Below, in pieces: positions 47,240 to 55,555 of a stretch of 55,555 bases of DNA. Where the stretch lies: positions 1-55,555 of the forward strand of contig JAQXQN010000019.1 of NCBI GenBank assembly GCA_029101185.1, in the 5' to 3' direction. Made by a program: the position numbers and the translations under genes. The notes under the pieces were generated by a model that had not been told where the DNA came from, did no database searches, and saw only the letters and a program-made list of their open reading frames with translations. The stretch is from Eggerthellales bacterium. GTDB taxonomy: Bacteria; Actinomycetota; Coriobacteriia; Coriobacteriales; Eggerthellaceae. Each line of letters begins with the position of its first letter. Within the stretch, counting starts at the first letter, position 1.

Positions 47240-47255
47240 GGAACTATACTTGCTC

Positions 47256-47343
47256 GTATCGGGGAGCTTGCTGCTGCGGGCTGAGAGGAGGGGAGCACCC
47301 CTCGACCCGTTGAACCTGTTTGGATAATGCCAGCGAAGGGAGT
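47256..47343 (+). promoter_or_regulatory. TPP riboswitch (THI element)
   Basis: The conserved blocks CGGGGAGC, GGCTGAGAGG and CGACCCGTTGAACCTG...TGGATAATGCCAGCG appear in the right order and spacing; these form the pyrimidine- and pyrophosphate-binding arms of the TPP aptamer. The 3' end (GAAGGGAG) is also the ribosome site of thiM, eight bases before its ATG, so regulation is probably by hiding that site when TPP is bound. No separate terminator hairpin is seen, which favours translational control. Confidence 0.95.
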
Positions 47344-47350
47344 CTTACTT

Positions 47351-48220
47351 ATGGCACCACTGTATGCAACCACCCCAGAAATTCAGGACGGCATCCGTCG
47401 CGCCGCCTCCGTCCTGCGTGAGAAGGGCGCTTTGGTGCACTGCATCACCAACTACGTGACGGTGGAAAGCTGTGCAAACGCCGTTCTTGCGGTGGGGGCA
47501 AGCCCCATCATGTCGGACGAGCCCACGGATGTAGAGGACATCCAGAACATCTGCGGCGCTCTGGTAATCAACATTGGCACCCTGAATCAACAGACCATTC
47601 AGGGCATGATGGCGGCAGGTGATGCGGCGGCCCGCGCCAAGCATCCCATCGTGCTTGACCCGGTGGGGGCAGGCGCTTCTCGTCTGCGCACCCATGTGTC
47701 AAGCACTCTGCTTAACACCCTGCCTGTGACCTTGATTAGGTCGAATATGTCCGAGGCCAAGGCCCTTTCCGGAGCAAGCGCAAAGACCAAGGGCGTAGAC
47801 GTGAACCCTGAGGATGCGGTTACCCCGGAGAATCTGGAGCGGTCAGCACGCTTCGCCCGGGACCTTGCCCGCAACGCCGGGTGCGTGGTGGCCATCACCG
47901 GGGCTATCGACCTGATTTCCGATGGGCAGCGGGTCTTCGCGGTGGGCAACGGCTCTCCCATGCAGGGCCGCATCACCGGTGCCGGCTGTATGCTTTCCGC
48001 CTTCAGCGGCGGGTATCTGGCGGCAAATCCTGAGGACGCCCTGTTTGCCGCCCTGGCGGCTGTGGTTCATGCTGGAGTTGCCGGGCAGCGGGCCCAGGCG
48101 CGGATGGAGGGCAACCCCCAGGACGGCACAGGAAGCTTCCGCACCTATCTGATGGATGCCCTGAGCACCCTGACCCCTGATCAGCTGGCCGCAGAGGCCC
48201 GGGTTGAGCAGGTCCTCTAG
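47351..48220 (+). CDS. thiM: Hydroxyethylthiazole kinase
   Basis: Salvages the thiazole half of thiamine by phosphorylating hydroxyethylthiazole. The 289 residues start at ATG 47351; the track's ATG at 47327 lies within the riboswitch. HCITNYVTVESCANAVLAVGASPIMSDEP (about 31-59) is the substrate-binding signature; LDPVGAGASR near 105-114 and GNGSPMQGRITGAGCMLSAF near 199-218 hold the ribokinase-like catalytic Cys/Asp region. Its product is used by ThiE, encoded immediately downstream. Confidence 0.97.
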   Translation: MAPLYATTPEIQDGIRRAASVLREKGALVHCITNYVTVESCANAVLAVGASPIMSDEPTDVEDIQNICGALVINIGTLNQQTIQGMMAAGDAAARAKHPIVLDPVGAGASRLRTHVSSTLLNTLPVTLIRSNMSEAKALSGASAKTKGVDVNPEDAVTPENLERSARFARDLARNAGCVVAITGAIDLISDGQRVFAVGNGSPMQGRITGAGCMLSAFSGGYLAANPEDALFAALAAVVHAGVAGQRAQARMEGNPQDGTGSFRTYLMDALSTLTPDQLAAEARVEQVL

Positions 48221-48236
48221 GACAGGGGCGTTGGAT

Positions 48237-48959
48237 ATGGATCGGGCTATGGCGGGGGATTGTGTGCAAGCCCGCGCACAATCTCAGGCCCCTGATTCCC
48301 CCCGCAGATGGCTGCAAGAGCACCCTGAGGCGTTGATTCTCTATGGGGTGAGCGACAATGCCTGGCTTGCTGGCAGGACTCTCGGGGAGTGCTGCGCTCA
48401 GGCGGTTTCAGGAGGCGTGAGCTTTCTTCAAATCAGGGATAAGGAAGCCTCCACGGCACGGCTGGTGGAGGAGTATCGGCAGGTTTCCTCCTGCCTGGCC
48501 GAGACGCTGGGTTGCTGGGTGCCGCTGGTGATTAATGACGATGTTGCCGCCGCCCTTGCATCCGGCGCCGACGGGGTTCATGTGGGCCAGGATGACATGG
48601 CCTGCGCCCGGGCCCGGCAGATGCTTGGCCCCCATAAGATTGTGGGGGTGTCCGCTCAAACGGTGGAGCAGGCCCTTGCTGCCCAGGAGGCTGGGGCTGA
48701 TTACCTGGGGGTGGGGGCACTGATTCCTACACCCACCAAGCCCGATGCGGTTGATGTTACCTACCAGCAGCTGCAAGAGATCTGCCAGGCGGTGGATATC
48801 CCTGTGGTGGGCATTGGCGGGCTGAATCTGAACACCTTGAAAGTCCTTAAGGGCAGCGGCGTTGCTGGGGCAGCGGTGGTGTCCGCCGTGTTTGCCGCCG
48901 AAGACATCCGCCAGGCAAGCGCGGATTTGCGAAGGGAGCTTAATCGTGTCCTTACCTGA
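48237..48959 (+). CDS. thiE: Thiamine phosphate synthase
   Basis: Joins the pyrimidine pyrophosphate (from ThiD) and the thiazole phosphate (from ThiM). The 240 residues form a TIM barrel: LYGVSDNAW near 36-44, SFLQIRDKEA near 64-73, VPLVINDDV near 96-104, GADGVHVGQDDM near 109-120, and GVGALIPTPTKPDA near 156-169. The first 30 residues precede the barrel, so the true start could be later or at the upstream TTG; ATG 48237 has AGGGG upstream. Its end overlaps thiD by 14 bases. Confidence 0.95.
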   Translation: MDRAMAGDCVQARAQSQAPDSPRRWLQEHPEALILYGVSDNAWLAGRTLGECCAQAVSGGVSFLQIRDKEASTARLVEEYRQVSSCLAETLGCWVPLVINDDVAAALASGADGVHVGQDDMACARARQMLGPHKIVGVSAQTVEQALAAQEAGADYLGVGALIPTPTKPDAVDVTYQQLQEICQAVDIPVVGIGGLNLNTLKVLKGSGVAGAAVVSAVFAAEDIRQASADLRRELNRVLT

Positions 48960-49809
48960 ATGGAGCCTTCCTGCATGCCCCCATATCCCAAGTGTGCTCA
49001 CCATCGCGGGATCTGATAGCAGCGGTGGGGCGGGTATCCAGGCGGATATCAAGACCATCACCGCCTGCGGCTGCTTTGCCCAAAGCGCCATTGCGGCACT
49101 GACGGCGCAAAACACCCTTGGAGTCGCCCAGGTGGTCAACATTGATCCTCAAGCCTTGGTCAACCAGATCATGGCGGTGTTTGACGATATTGCCCCTGCA
49201 GCGGTCAAGGTGGGCATGCTTTCCACCGCGGACAACATGAGGGCCACCTCCCGGGTGCTTAAGGAACTTGCGCAGCAGGGCAGGGGGCCGCAGTACGTGG
49301 TGGTAGACCCGGTGATGGTGGCCACAAGCGGCGCCGCCCTGATGGACGGGGATGCCGCAGAGGCCCTTGAGGAGCTCATGGGTCAGGCATGCGTCATCAC
49401 CCCTAACATCCCTGAGGCCCAGGTGCTCTGCGGGATGGAGATTCGCACCCCCCAGGAGATGGAGCAGGCAGCGGTGCTCCTAGCGAAGCGTACCAGGAGC
49501 GCAGTGCTGCTCAAGGGCGGGCATTTCTGGGGGGATACCTGTAACGATCTGCTGATGGAGCCCGATGGATCCGCCCAATGGTTTGAGGGGCCCCGGGTCA
49601 AGACTGAAAACACCCATGGCACGGGGTGCACCCTGTCAAGCGCTTTGGCAAGCGGCCTTGCCCGGGGAATGGATATTCCTCGGGCGGTACGCTTCGCTAA
49701 GGACTATGTGGCGGGAGCCCTTGCCTCCGGGTTGGACCTGGGGCGGGGGTCGGGGCCTGTAGACCACATGTGGATGTATCGGAAGACGAATGAAGCCGCC
49801 TGTCAATAA
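48946..49809 (+). CDS. thiD: Hydroxymethylpyrimidine (phosphate) kinase
   Basis: Phosphorylates HMP and HMP-phosphate to the pyrophosphate used by ThiE. The 287 residues start at GTG 48946, which has GGAG nine bases upstream inside thiE; the track's longer start runs in the thiE frame region. LTIAGSDSSGGAGIQADIKT near 18-37 is the family's opening, VDPVMVATSG near 120-129 and the anion-hole stretch KTENTHGTGCTLSSALA near 217-233 hold the catalytic Asp/Cys/Gly residues. It is the last gene of the thiamine operon; a 32-bp palindrome follows. Confidence 0.97.
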   Translation: MSLPEWSLPACPHIPSVLTIAGSDSSGGAGIQADIKTITACGCFAQSAIAALTAQNTLGVAQVVNIDPQALVNQIMAVFDDIAPAAVKVGMLSTADNMRATSRVLKELAQQGRGPQYVVVDPVMVATSGAALMDGDAAEALEELMGQACVITPNIPEAQVLCGMEIRTPQEMEQAAVLLAKRTRSAVLLKGGHFWGDTCNDLLMEPDGSAQWFEGPRVKTENTHGTGCTLSSALASGLARGMDIPRAVRFAKDYVAGALASGLDLGRGSGPVDHMWMYRKTNEAACQ

Positions 49810-50512: not shown

Positions 50513-53500
50513 ATGAGGGGCTTTATCGTAGAGACCGCATGCAAGGGGAAACGGCCCGCCGGAGTGTTTCCCGTCGGACATCGGTGCAGGCAGCGGCTGA
50601 TCAAACGGATGCTGGTGGAAAGGTGCTCCCCCTGCTTTATTGTGGGGCCCGACGGCTTTGGGAAGACCGCCCTGGCGGCAGAGTATGCAGAGACGGTGCG
50701 GGGGTTCGTTGAGACCTTTTGGATCCCATGCCAGAGCCCCTGCTTTCTCAGGGATCTGGACTCCGAACAGATAGCCCGCTCCCTCAAGCGCCTGGTGCGC
50801 AAGTCCGGCTTGGTGGTCTTTGACGACCTTCCTTTTCTTGACGAGGACCGCGCACCCCGGTTTTCTCATGTCATTGATGAGCTAGTGGCTGCAGGATGGG
50901 AGGTAGTGGTCACCCTGCGGCCCCTGCACGACGTGTTCGGGGACCTGCAGCAGGGAAGATCGCGGATAGGACCCTTCGACTTGCTCCTTGACCGCGCGGA
51001 GATAGAGGAGTGTCTGGAGCTTCCTGGTCTTGACGGCAGACGGGAAGGGGCCCTGTCCATCACACGGCTGACCCGTCAGTCGGAGGTGTCTATCCAGGTG
51101 CCGTCTCTGGCCTGGGGTGGCGAAGGGGGCAGGGCGCAATTCGTCCAGAGCCTGAAAGATGAGCGTCCTCCCCTTGACGTGCGGCTCAACATTTTTGTCA
51201 TGCTGGTGCTTGGCATCGGGCAGGTCGCGGATCTGAGGAGCGCCTGCGGACAGCCCGCCCGGGATTCCTGGGGATACATTCTGGGTTCGTGCCCGTATGT
51301 TCGGGTGGATCAGGTGGAGGATTCCTTTACCGCCTGCGCCCTGTCCATTGAGGATATCGCCCGAGCCTATCGGGAGTCCATCTCCGGCATGGCGGCTGCA
51401 AGCCCCTTTGAGACCCAGGAGCGCCTGTGCTCCTATCTTGCGGAGCGCCTATGCTGCGCCGGCAATCTGCAGCGAGCGGCGCGGCTGGTGGGGGCGTTTT
51501 GTCCGAAAAAGCCTCGGCTGCGCTGGATACGCAGGATGCGGGCGGGGTATTTCAGCAAGGGCGAGATGCTGGCCATGGAGCGGCTCTACGAGTCGTTGGG
51601 GACACGGCCGGTGGGGGTGACCTTTGATGACGAAGCGTCCCAAGTGGAACGGCTTTATCTGCTTGGGGATGCCCAGGCGGCCTGTCAGGTGGCTTTTCGG
51701 TGCGTGCTTGGCACCATCACTTCAACGGCGCTTGCAGCCCGGGTGCTGACTGTGGTTCTTATCTGCCGGATCCCGGAGCATCGGGACAAGTCCGTGTCTC
51801 TTGCTCGCAGGGCCATGACCATGATCGAACGGGAGCTGTCCACCCCTGCGGCTCAAGAGGCCTTGGCCAAAGGAGAGGCGGCTGCTGTGGGAGAGAGTGC
51901 GGGGGATACTCGGATCCAGGCTGGCCTTTTGGCAAAGGAGGATGCTCTTGCGGTGCGCGAGTCGGGAGAGGACCAAGCCCGGGCCGCGCGCAAGACCATC
52001 ACCGCGTATCAGGGTGTGGTGGCACGTCAGCAGGCCGCCACGTTGCTCTCCTGTGCGTTGGCCCTGAGGGACGGACTGTATGAGCAGTGCCTTGAGCTGC
52101 TTTCCTGCATGGGTGACGCCTTGCGCAAGGACTGGCTGGGGGCGGAGATCTTAGCCCAGCTGCTTCAAGCTCCGAGCGCGGATTCCGAGACAGGCGCCAC
52201 CTCTCAGACGCCCTTTTCGGGGTCCGATTGGCGGGTAGAGGCCCTCATCCTGGCGAAAGGCCTGATGAGTTCAGGCGGGCTTTGGCCGTCTACGGGAGTG
52301 GTGGGACAGGCCTTGCTTCTTGACGCCCTTGGGACGGTATCAGGGGCGGATGGGGGATTGCGCCAGACGGAGCAGGCCTATCTCAGGGACATGATTGCCT
52401 CTCTATCCTGGCAGAGGACCCAGTGGAGTATGGCCTGTGGAGATACATCCTCCTCTGCCGGCGGGGCATCCCTTGCGGGGCTTTTCTCCTCGGCTCTGCA
52501 ACCCCAGGAGTCTGATTGGCAGGATGAGGGCATGCCGGGCAGGCAGGATTTTGCCACCCAGTCGGAGGCGGTCTCTTTGCAGGCACCTGCCGAGGGCAGT
52601 GCCGGGCCCTCCTTGCAGGTGGGTCTTGAGCATGGGGTGAATCGGGCCTATGGCGGATGGACCTGCAGTCCTGTGCAGCCTACCGCCTTAGGCTGCGGGT
52701 TGCAGGCGGCATCGGGGGTTGGGCACGCTTCGGTTTCGGGCGGGATGATCCGGACCTGCGATGGTTCCGCCTTTGCCATCAGGCCTTCCTACGGCACAGA
52801 GTCAACCCGGATTCCTTCGGGGCTTGTGGGTGCCCGGCTTGCGGGCTCTCGAGGAATTGACCCCCTGTACGTGAGGATGTTCGGGGGATTTGAGGTCTCG
52901 CGGGGGGAGGAGTGCATCGATCCTGCACGCTTCGTCAGGCAAAAAGCCAAGACGCTGCTGGCTATCCTGGCTCTGAACAGGGGAAAAGAGGTGTCCCGGT
53001 CCGAGATTCTCAGGGCCATGTGGCCGGATATGCCCAAGGAGCGCTCGGTGCGCAACTTCTATACCGTGTGGTCCCAAATGCGCCACGCCCTGATGCTCGA
53101 AACCGGCGAGTGCCCCTATGTGGCCCGGCACCAGAACTGCTGCAAGGTTGAAGCCCGCCTTGTCCACACGGACCTAGAGGAGTTTGACGCCCTGTGCAGG
53201 ACGTTGCTGTTTGGCTCCATTGACGGCCAGGATTGGCTGGGGATCCTCACAAGGCTCAAGGACCATTTTGCCGCGGGGCTTTTGCCTGCCGAGGAGGACA
53301 ATGCTTTGATCCTTATGGCTCGGCAGCGTTACGAAACCCAGATGGTTGACGCCTTCGTGGCAGGCTGCGAGCGCCTGTGCGACGTGCTGGACTTTAAAAA
53401 CGCCCTGTGGTTCGGCCGTGCCGCTGTGGAGTTTGCCCCTGATAGGGAGGACGGATACTGCGCTTTGATGTGGGCTCAGATTGAGGGCGGGCAGCTTTCC

Positions 53501-53668
53501 GCCGCTATGGCCACCTACGAAACCTGCCGCGGGCGGCTTCGGGATCATCTGGGGATAGACCCCTCCGCTCGGTTGATGGAGCTCCATCAACAGCTGGTCA
53601 ACGCTCGTGGTTCTTCTCTGGTCAGGGGGTCGAAGCGGACGGGAACGCGTAGGTCTGTGATAAAGTAG
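50513..53668 (+). CDS. STAND-type ATPase with C-terminal SARP (winged helix + BTAD) domains
   Basis: A 1,051-residue putative transcription regulator. The N-terminus carries a P-loop, GPDGFGKT (45-52), and a Walker B-like strand, LVVFDD (about 100-105), as in MalT/AfsR-type STAND ATPases that switch on ligand binding. A long middle region (about 250-780) looks helical in its first half and low-complexity later. The C-terminus begins again with structured text: YVRMFGGFEVSRGEE (about 786) opens an OmpR-type winged helix typical of SARPs, with the recognition region near KERSVRNFYTVWSQMR, followed by a BTAD domain ending ATYETCRGRLRDHLGIDPS. In AfsR the SARP part is N-terminal and the ATPase follows, so the order here is reversed. 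The target and ligand are unknown. The ATG has GGAG upstream. It is alone before secA. Confidence 0.88.
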   Translation: MRGFIVETACKGKRPAGVFPVGHRCRQRLIKRMLVERCSPCFIVGPDGFGKTALAAEYAETVRGFVETFWIPCQSPCFLRDLDSEQIARSLKRLVRKSGLVVFDDLPFLDEDRAPRFSHVIDELVAAGWEVVVTLRPLHDVFGDLQQGRSRIGPFDLLLDRAEIEECLELPGLDGRREGALSITRLTRQSEVSIQVPSLAWGGEGGRAQFVQSLKDERPPLDVRLNIFVMLVLGIGQVADLRSACGQPARDSWGYILGSCPYVRVDQVEDSFTACALSIEDIARAYRESISGMAAASPFETQERLCSYLAERLCCAGNLQRAARLVGAFCPKKPRLRWIRRMRAGYFSKGEMLAMERLYESLGTRPVGVTFDDEASQVERLYLLGDAQAACQVAFRCVLGTITSTALAARVLTVVLICRIPEHRDKSVSLARRAMTMIERELSTPAAQEALAKGEAAAVGESAGDTRIQAGLLAKEDALAVRESGEDQARAARKTITAYQGVVARQQAATLLSCALALRDGLYEQCLELLSCMGDALRKDWLGAEILAQLLQAPSADSETGATSQTPFSGSDWRVEALILAKGLMSSGGLWPSTGVVGQALLLDALGTVSGADGGLRQTEQAYLRDMIASLSWQRTQWSMACGDTSSSAGGASLAGLFSSALQPQESDWQDEGMPGRQDFATQSEAVSLQAPAEGSAGPSLQVGLEHGVNRAYGGWTCSPVQPTALGCGLQAASGVGHASVSGGMIRTCDGSAFAIRPSYGTESTRIPSGLVGARLAGSRGIDPLYVRMFGGFEVSRGEECIDPARFVRQKAKTLLAILALNRGKEVSRSEILRAMWPDMPKERSVRNFYTVWSQMRHALMLETGECPYVARHQNCCKVEARLVHTDLEEFDALCRTLLFGSIDGQDWLGILTRLKDHFAAGLLPAEEDNALILMARQRYETQMVDAFVAGCERLCDVLDFKNALWFGRAAVEFAPDREDGYCALMWAQIEGGQLSAAMATYETCRGRLRDHLGIDPSARLMELHQQLVNARGSSLVRGSKRTGTRRSVIK

Positions 53669-53764: not shown

Positions 53765-55555
53765 ATGGGCTTTTTGAGCAAGATTCTTACCTTTGGCGAA
53801 GGCAAGCAGCTAAAGCAGTACCAGAACCTGGTGCAGAAGGTAGGCAGCTTCGAGCCTGCCATGAAGGATCTCTCCGATGAAGAGCTGGCGGCTCTTACCA
53901 GCGCCTACCGCACGCGCTACGCCAACGGCGAGAGCCTGGATTCTCTGCTGCCGGAGGCCTTTGCCACGGTGAGGGAGGCTGGCTGGCGGACCTTGGGCAT
54001 GCGCCATTTTGACGTGCAGCTCATTGGCGGTATGGCCCTGCATGACGGGCAGATTGCAGAGATGAAAACTGGCGAGGGTAAGACCCTTGTCTCCACCTTG
54101 GCTGGATACCTGAATGCCATCCCCGGCAAGGGCGTGCATGTGGTCACGGTCAATGACTACCTTGCCAAGCGCGACTCCGAGTGGATGGGCAGGATTTACC
54201 GTTTCCTGGGTATGGAAGTGGGTCTGATTCAAAACGGCATGAGCCCGAAGGACCGTATTCCTGCATACCAGGCCGACGTCACGTACGGCACCAACGCGGA
54301 GTTTGGCTTTGACTACCTGAGGGATAACATGGTCAAGCGGGCGGGGTCTCGGGTCCAGCGTGGCCATAGCTTCGCCATCGTAGACGAGGTGGACTCCATC
54401 CTGATTGACGAGGCCCGTACTCCTTTGATCATCTCAGGTGCTGGCATCAAGGCGGCGGACACCTACAAGAAGTTCGCTCGGGCCATGCTTGCCCTCAGTC
54501 CCGAGGATGACTTCATCCTTGATGAGGCCAAGCGCACCATCGTCCCCACCGAGGTGGGACTGGCAAAGATCGAGGCCAGGCTGGGCATTGAGGACATCTA
54601 CGCGGACACCACCGGGCAACTGGCCAACCATCTGCAGCAGGCCTTGAGGGCCCAGTACCTGTTCAAGCGGGATGTGGACTATGTGGTCGTAGGCGGCGAG
54701 GTCAAGATTGTTGACGAGTTCACCGGCCGCATCATGGAGGGCCGCAGGTATTCCGAGGGTCTGCACCAGGCCCTTGAGGCAAAGGAGAACGTGCGCATCC
54801 GCGAGGAGAACCAGACCCTTGCCACCATCACCCTGCAAAACTACTTCCGCCTCTATGACAAGCTCTCGGGCATGACTGGCACCGCCATGACTGAGGACGC
54901 AGAGTTTCGTCAGATTTACAACCTGCCGGTGGTTGCCATTCCGCCCAATAAGCCGGTGGCTCGTGTGGATAACAATGACCTGGTGTATCGTACCATCGAT
55001 GCCAAGTTCAAGGCCGTGGCCGACGATGTGGCCCGCCGTCATCAGGCGCAGCAGCCCGTGCTGGTGGGCACCGTCTCCATTGAGACCTCCGAGCGGCTCT
55101 CTCGGGCCCTTGATAAGCGGGGTATTCCCCATGAGACCCTCAACGCCAAGAACCATGAGCGGGAGGCTCATATCGTGGCCCAGGCGGGCCGTCTTGGGGC
55201 GGTAACCATCGCCACCAACATGGCTGGTCGTGGTACGGACATCCTTCTTGGCGGCAACGCGGAGGTGCTTGCCGACGATTTGCTGCTTGAGCGTGGCATT
55301 GCTCTTGAGGAGGCCACAGATGAGCAGCGCCAGTGGGCGGCGGATCAGGCCAAGGCCATCACCAAATCCGAGCACGACCAGGTGGTCAAGGCTGGAGGCC
55401 TTGCGGTTATCGGCACGGAGCGCCATGAGTCCCGCCGTATCGACAACCAGCTGCGTGGCCGCTCCGGACGTCAGGGAGACCCTGGCGAGACCCAGTTTTA
55501 CCTGTCTTTGGAGGACGACCTGATGCGTCTGTTCGGTGGGGACCGGATGGATTCC
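53765..55555 (+). CDS. secA: Protein translocase ATPase SecA (cut by window end)
   Basis: Motor that pushes preproteins through SecYEG. The window holds 597 codons; the normal length is 800-950, so the C-terminal scaffold and any zinc tail lie outside. The first residues [23 protein letters not shown] are typical. The Walker A motif is MKTGEGKTL (about 100-108), [11 protein letters not shown] and [16 protein letters not shown] follow, and the second ATPase half has [10 protein letters not shown] and the Arg finger region [13 protein letters not shown] near 565-580. GAAAGGG precedes the ATG at 53765. Actinobacteria often have SecA1 and SecA2; nothing here marks it as the accessory form. Its partner secE is at 16.2 kb. 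Confidence 0.97.

Follow-up and report, generated by a model that had tools for sequence, protein, structure and literature searches.

The regulator gene and its immediate surroundings

In the window, which is the whole stretch of 55,555 nucleotides that was analysed, an open reading frame of 1,051 codons spans positions 50513-53668 on the forward strand. Its ATG start is supported by the family alignment, since the encoded N-terminus, MRGFIVETACKGKRP, fits the family-wide consensus MxxFLxxSACxGRRP, and the frame is a real gene. From the reading frame, the family alignment, profile matches and a structural model, the product of 1,051 aa is predicted to carry a MalT-like STAND NTPase, a helical middle and a C-terminal SARP module. 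The 5' part of secA (53765..55555, forward strand), recognised by its SecA homology and by an adjacency conserved across the class, begins in the same orientation after a gap of 96 bp and runs off the contig end; no terminator-like site was found in this gap. The initial annotation had described the regulator gene as isolated, which does not hold with secA so close. On the other side, a TPP riboswitch at 47250-47358 stands ahead of several probable thiamine genes in a row (region 47250-49809), which we take to be thiM, thiE and thiD from recognition of their sequences rather than from a family search.

A MalT-like build with a SARP at the C-terminus

The protein was analysed with a profile (A1), built from 36 homologues and run against PDB sequences, and with an AlphaFold model for which 69 homologues were used. 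The profile raised both ends of the regulator well above noise. The model has a mean pLDDT of 78.9, with values mostly about 85-98 at residues 1-170 and 190-400 (dip at 171-190) and about 93-98 across most of residues 781-1030 (dip at 901-910); residues 450-570 are uncertain and residues 648-779 disordered. When known structures were ranked against this model by Foldseek, EmbR, MalT and AfsR came out on top, followed by CED-4 and by Avs5, a defence protein of the STAND type.

Residues about 20-420 (50570..51770, forward strand) are predicted to form a MalT-like STAND NTPase, that is, a NOD with its arm. A Walker A motif of MalT type, GPDGFGKT, occupies residues 45-52 (50645-50668) and a Walker B motif, LVVFDD, residues about 101-106; both are conserved among the homologues of the family. 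With the single sequence, the Pfam families AAA_16/AAA_22 matched residues 31-110 below the curated cut-offs. Both the profile, whose positions 20-377 align with residues 11-417 of MalT 8bob_C (E=2.3e-12), and Foldseek, which matched the model to 8bob_C (E 3.3e-6) and to CED-4, point to an NTPase fold with helical/winged-helix domains and an arm behind it. The superposition on MalT was poor (453 columns aligned, rmsd 21.8 Å, TM(target) 0.32), so the relative packing of the domains in the model is not to be trusted. An IstB, DnaA or AAA+ identity of this end, raised by weak single-sequence matches, was rejected, since the profile favours MalT over every other NTPase by about five orders of magnitude.

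The SARP module covers residues 785-1031 of 1,051 (52865..53605, forward strand), with a winged helix at about 785-880 and a BTAD at about 887-1031. With the single sequence, Pfam BTAD matched residues 930-1028 (E 3.8e-12) and Trans_reg_C residues 811-847, the latter under the curated cut-off. The profile matched the C-terminus to EmbR 2fez_A (E 2.1e-12) and AfsR 8hvr_I (3.1e-9), and Foldseek aligned it with the SARP of AfsR (TM(target) 0.78 for 8hvr_I and 0.79 for 8k60_I). Pfam, profile, model and Foldseek all place an OmpR-type winged helix directly before the BTAD. The C-terminus is therefore a Trans_reg_C-like winged helix plus BTAD and not a LuxR-type HTH, and the SARP does not stand at the N-terminus as it does in the large SARPs of the AfsR type. 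We then traced in a HMMER alignment the residues with which AfsR is published to contact DNA and RNAP (PMC10936776). Its DNA contacts W74, T88, S91 and R94 correspond to W837, T851, S854 and R857. In place of the base-reading R92 stands Q855, and in place of K95, H858; of the residues that touch RNAP, D71 is R831 here and R59 is N822. SARP-type DNA binding by the regulator is likely from this alignment. Since R92, D71 and R59 are replaced, its DNA preference and RNAP contacts may differ from those of AfsR, and the same sequence preference is not likely.

Between the two ends, residues about 420-647 (51771..52453, forward strand) form a putative helical sensor, weakly conserved and defined from the secondary structure of the model. 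Pfam TPR_12 matches were obtained in the middle region only for deep-branching homologues of about 1,100 aa (L054, L059), which is why the helical stretch at about 420-648 is probably an eroded TPR-type sensor. It is followed by a linker of about 130 residues (648-779; 52454..52849, forward strand) with pLDDT below 50, which is private to the source genome and largely missing from its relatives, 18 of which show a long gap when aligned; the window copy of the regulator is about 150 aa longer than theirs. GC by codon position is flatter in the linker (0.65/0.63/0.69) than in the rest of the gene (0.66/0.48/0.72).

The domain order is thus NOD, helices, SARP, the reverse of AfsR, and as predicted from profiles and model the regulator has the order of MalT, a SARP standing where MalT has its LuxR DNA-binding domain. 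A reversed order of SARP and ATPase had been proposed in the initial annotation and is confirmed by the reading frame, the profile matches and the AlphaFold model. That annotation had placed the P-loop (45-52) and the C-terminal module (about 786-1035) correctly, the NTPase fold expected at the N-terminus is present (STAND NTPase model, pLDDT about 90-98), and the likeness to MalT, with an N-terminal switch and a different C-terminal DNA-binding domain, is backed by both profile and structure comparison. Conversely, the 500 residues between P-loop and SARP that were said to match nothing resolve into the remainder of the MalT-like NOD with its winged-helix/arm region, the putative helical, TPR-like sensor and the disordered linker.

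Distribution and association with secA

Of 94 good genomes from the family, 93 contain a homologue, as do 261 of the 273 from the class Coriobacteriia; in these counts, a match may be to either half of the protein. The source genome has one homologue and one BTAD protein in all; its nearest named genomes are those of Slackia species, the genus mates of the window in the genome search. For named genomes, we used 80 loci collected by a family-alignment search that finds Eggerthellaceae-type genomes only; outside this set, the labels Eggerthellaceae-, Coriobacteriaceae- and Atopobiaceae-type are inferred. The reversed order, with both halves confirmed, was found in 71 of the named loci, in one open frame each and with complete chromosomes included, and also in deep-class loci and in both remaining large families of the order. 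These results indicate that the regulator is a conserved single-copy gene across the class Coriobacteriia, in gut and environmental bacteria. The Walker A pattern [AG]PxG[FY]GK[ST] is kept in nearly all family members. Its lysine is lost in three homologues of inferred Coriobacteriaceae type (L181, L182 and L183, which read AEPGMGRHD, AEPDMGADE and ASRGYGATS) that still keep the SARP end and the adjacency to secA, so the ATP switch is not universal and seems to have been lost in this one lineage.

A SARP-domain tree set the Coriobacteriia apart from all others by a single branch (99/94, present in all bootstraps). Twelve large proteins from other actinobacterial classes, hand-picked and not a census, carried the SARP last in six cases (L185-L188, L194, L196) and first in the six others, so that a reversed order unique to Coriobacteriia was ruled out. 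Since the SARP domains of these other reversed copies fall outside the Coriobacteriia branch, separate origins of the order are possible. The gene is accordingly no isolated oddity, as had first been supposed: its architecture is class-wide, single-copy, syntenic with secA and found in other actinobacterial classes as well.

Across the class, the regulator lies beside secA-prfB, usually directly upstream of it, and by its location does not belong to secondary-metabolite clusters. We examined this in 69 named loci (6 without the C-terminus and 5 ending too soon were set aside). In 56 of them, secA starts downstream in the same orientation at a distance within 1.5 kb, and in six more at about 2.6-5.6 kb; in another three (L107, L111, L138), secA was directly upstream and divergent, still adjacent. 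The upstream neighbours vary from genus to genus while secA stays. In deep-class genomes, the gene order is hpf, a 226-aa protein of unknown function, HD-GYP, degenerate HD-GYP, DUF5317, regulator, secA, prfB. The pair is also adjacent in the Coriobacteriaceae-type loci L181-L183, and no secA was found within the 16 kb read around the regulator in the Atopobiaceae-type loci L177-L180.

Two further elements were observed in this gene string in deep Coriobacteriia, outside the window. The first is a conserved leader, AACACTGTCAGC...AGCGGAGCGGACAGNGTTCTTCCATTNCTAGCGGGATGGGAGAAGACC...AGGGGGTCTTCTCANATG, that precedes a membrane-type peptide of 24-26 aa, MKRIxxLLASLAALVLGGGAxxxx, in the hpf - HD-GYP - regulator - secA string (L057:2444-2690; L054:13490-13733, minus strand; L212-L241 near 1500). 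The element was present in 44 of 120 class genomes, exactly once in all but two, with 0 in the control, and had no match in Rfam. A hairpin, TTCTTCCAT:ATGGGAGAA, whose pairing is kept in 25/25 sequences, excludes a second one, GAGAAGACC:GGTCTTCTC, at the ribosome-binding site. The leader is a candidate for a new cis-regulatory RNA switch, with thin covariation because the sequence hardly varies. The second is the conserved protein of about 226 aa encoded between hpf and the HD-GYP gene (L054:13724-14404, minus strand; L057:1779-2450), for which Pfam gave no match.

When upstream regions of Eggerthella/Gordonibacter-type genomes were aligned, a block CGAACNNATGTCGG(N0-2)CTTG appeared at the likely -35 position. 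Searched as exact copies only, it was found in 14 of 140 family genomes (L198-L211), once each and always about 80-100 bp upstream of the regulator; the reversed motif, used as control, gave 0 matches. In this exact-copy search of 140 family genomes, the block was absent from the window's own genus, and footprinting of Slackia-type upstream regions revealed no motif common to them except a possible ribosome-binding region. The CGAACNNATGTCGG-CTTG block is a gene-specific promoter element; it fits with autoregulation and does not tell which protein binds.

Proposed mode of action and relation to known regulators

Taken together, the regulator is quite likely a STAND-class activator of transcription that is switched by ATP, of MalT-like build and with a SARP output. 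In the resting state, the NOD would hold ADP and the C-terminal SARP would be inactive or kept monomeric. Binding of a signal by the arm/helical region would lead to exchange of ADP for ATP and to oligomerisation. Oligomerisation would bring SARP domains together on tandem repeats in the DNA of a -35 region; there they would contact sigma region 4 and RNA polymerase in the manner of AfsR. The present analysis shows which domains the protein has and in what order, its conservation, its single copy and its linkage to secA; we infer the nucleotide switch, oligomerisation and activation by polymerase recruitment from MalT (PMC4381067, PMC10427625) and AfsR (PMC10936776).

Which genes such an activator would control is the point on which readings diverge. 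A global regulator with dispersed targets, next to which secA would merely have stayed as inherited neutral order in an old gene string, comes close to, but falls short of, an even prospect. Deep lineages end the hpf-to-prfB string with regulator, secA and prfB, so that the order may just be old; Atopobiaceae-type genomes retain the regulator without secA nearby, and AfsR has been described as pleiotropic (PMC10936776). However, the genes upstream are reshuffled between genera and secA stays, the pair remains adjacent even after inversion to a divergent arrangement, and exact copies of the promoter motif occur nowhere else in the genomes concerned, although the motif does not reveal the binding protein. 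We propose only tentatively that the regulator mainly targets its own promoter and the neighbouring secA-prfB unit. Of the target hypotheses, local control of secA lends itself best to testing; a broader regulon has at least the same likelihood. It is doubtful whether the Coriobacteriia possess, in the position upstream of secA, a dedicated STAND controller of the SecA motor and prfB that would read the state of secretion or translation and activate its own promoter and secA; such a controller would be analogous in logic to SecM-secA of E. coli, but would act at transcription.

That the N-terminal NTPase is a structural relic, and the protein a constitutive SARP whose activity is set by its level and not by a ligand, seems improbable to us. 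The degenerate Walker A of L181-L183 and the weakly conserved middle region would agree with it; against it, nearly every sequence of Eggerthellaceae type or from the deep class keeps Walker A, as do the Atopobiaceae-type sequences that were inspected, and the N-terminal half was recovered as widely as the SARP half. Finally, a fusion of two neighbouring genes by sequencing or assembly error, which the greater length of the window copy and its origin in a 219-contig draft might have evoked, is already refuted, since in 71 named homologues, some of them from complete chromosomes, a single frame encodes both halves.

For the ATP-switched activator that we favour, the wider meaning is that a MalT-type switch and a SARP output behave as swappable modules that can be joined in either order along the chain, and that the only SARP of the source gut bacterium is a class-wide gene and not an accessory of an antibiotic cluster. 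With the gene so strongly tied to secA, the idea that protein export has a regulator of its own in Eggerthella, Gordonibacter, Slackia and their relatives can be put to the test, and genetic tools now exist for such bacteria (PMC9734109). Large SARPs are described in a review with an N-terminal SARP domain only (PMC10972967), and no description of a reversed SARP or of a Coriobacteriia SARP was found in the open literature, subscription papers and preprint servers lying outside the search. The reversed SARP regulator is therefore common yet uncharacterised in the open literature searched; the initial annotation had considered that the architecture might prove a well-characterised common class, of which the commonness stands and the characterisation does not.

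With MalT and the LAL regulators, the protein shares an N-terminal NOD with the [AG]PxG[FY]GKT motif, a Walker B DD, an arm with a helical region and a C-terminal DNA-binding domain; it differs by its SARP in place of a LuxR-type HTH and by a much shorter and hardly conserved sensor. AfsR, a large SARP of Streptomyces, likewise combines a SARP (fold TM(target) about 0.78), a STAND NTPase and TPR-like helices, but as SARP-NOD-TPR instead of NOD-helices-SARP, and the regulator described here is not tied to antibiotic clusters and is the sole BTAD protein of its genome. The SARP-LAL regulators PimR, FilR and SanG also join a SARP to a LAL-like ATPase half (PMC10972967), although with the SARP at the N-terminus and with antibiotic clusters under their control. 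Finally, EmbR from Mycobacterium tuberculosis provides the best structural match through its SARP fold, but is a small protein with a C-terminal FHA domain and no NTPase.
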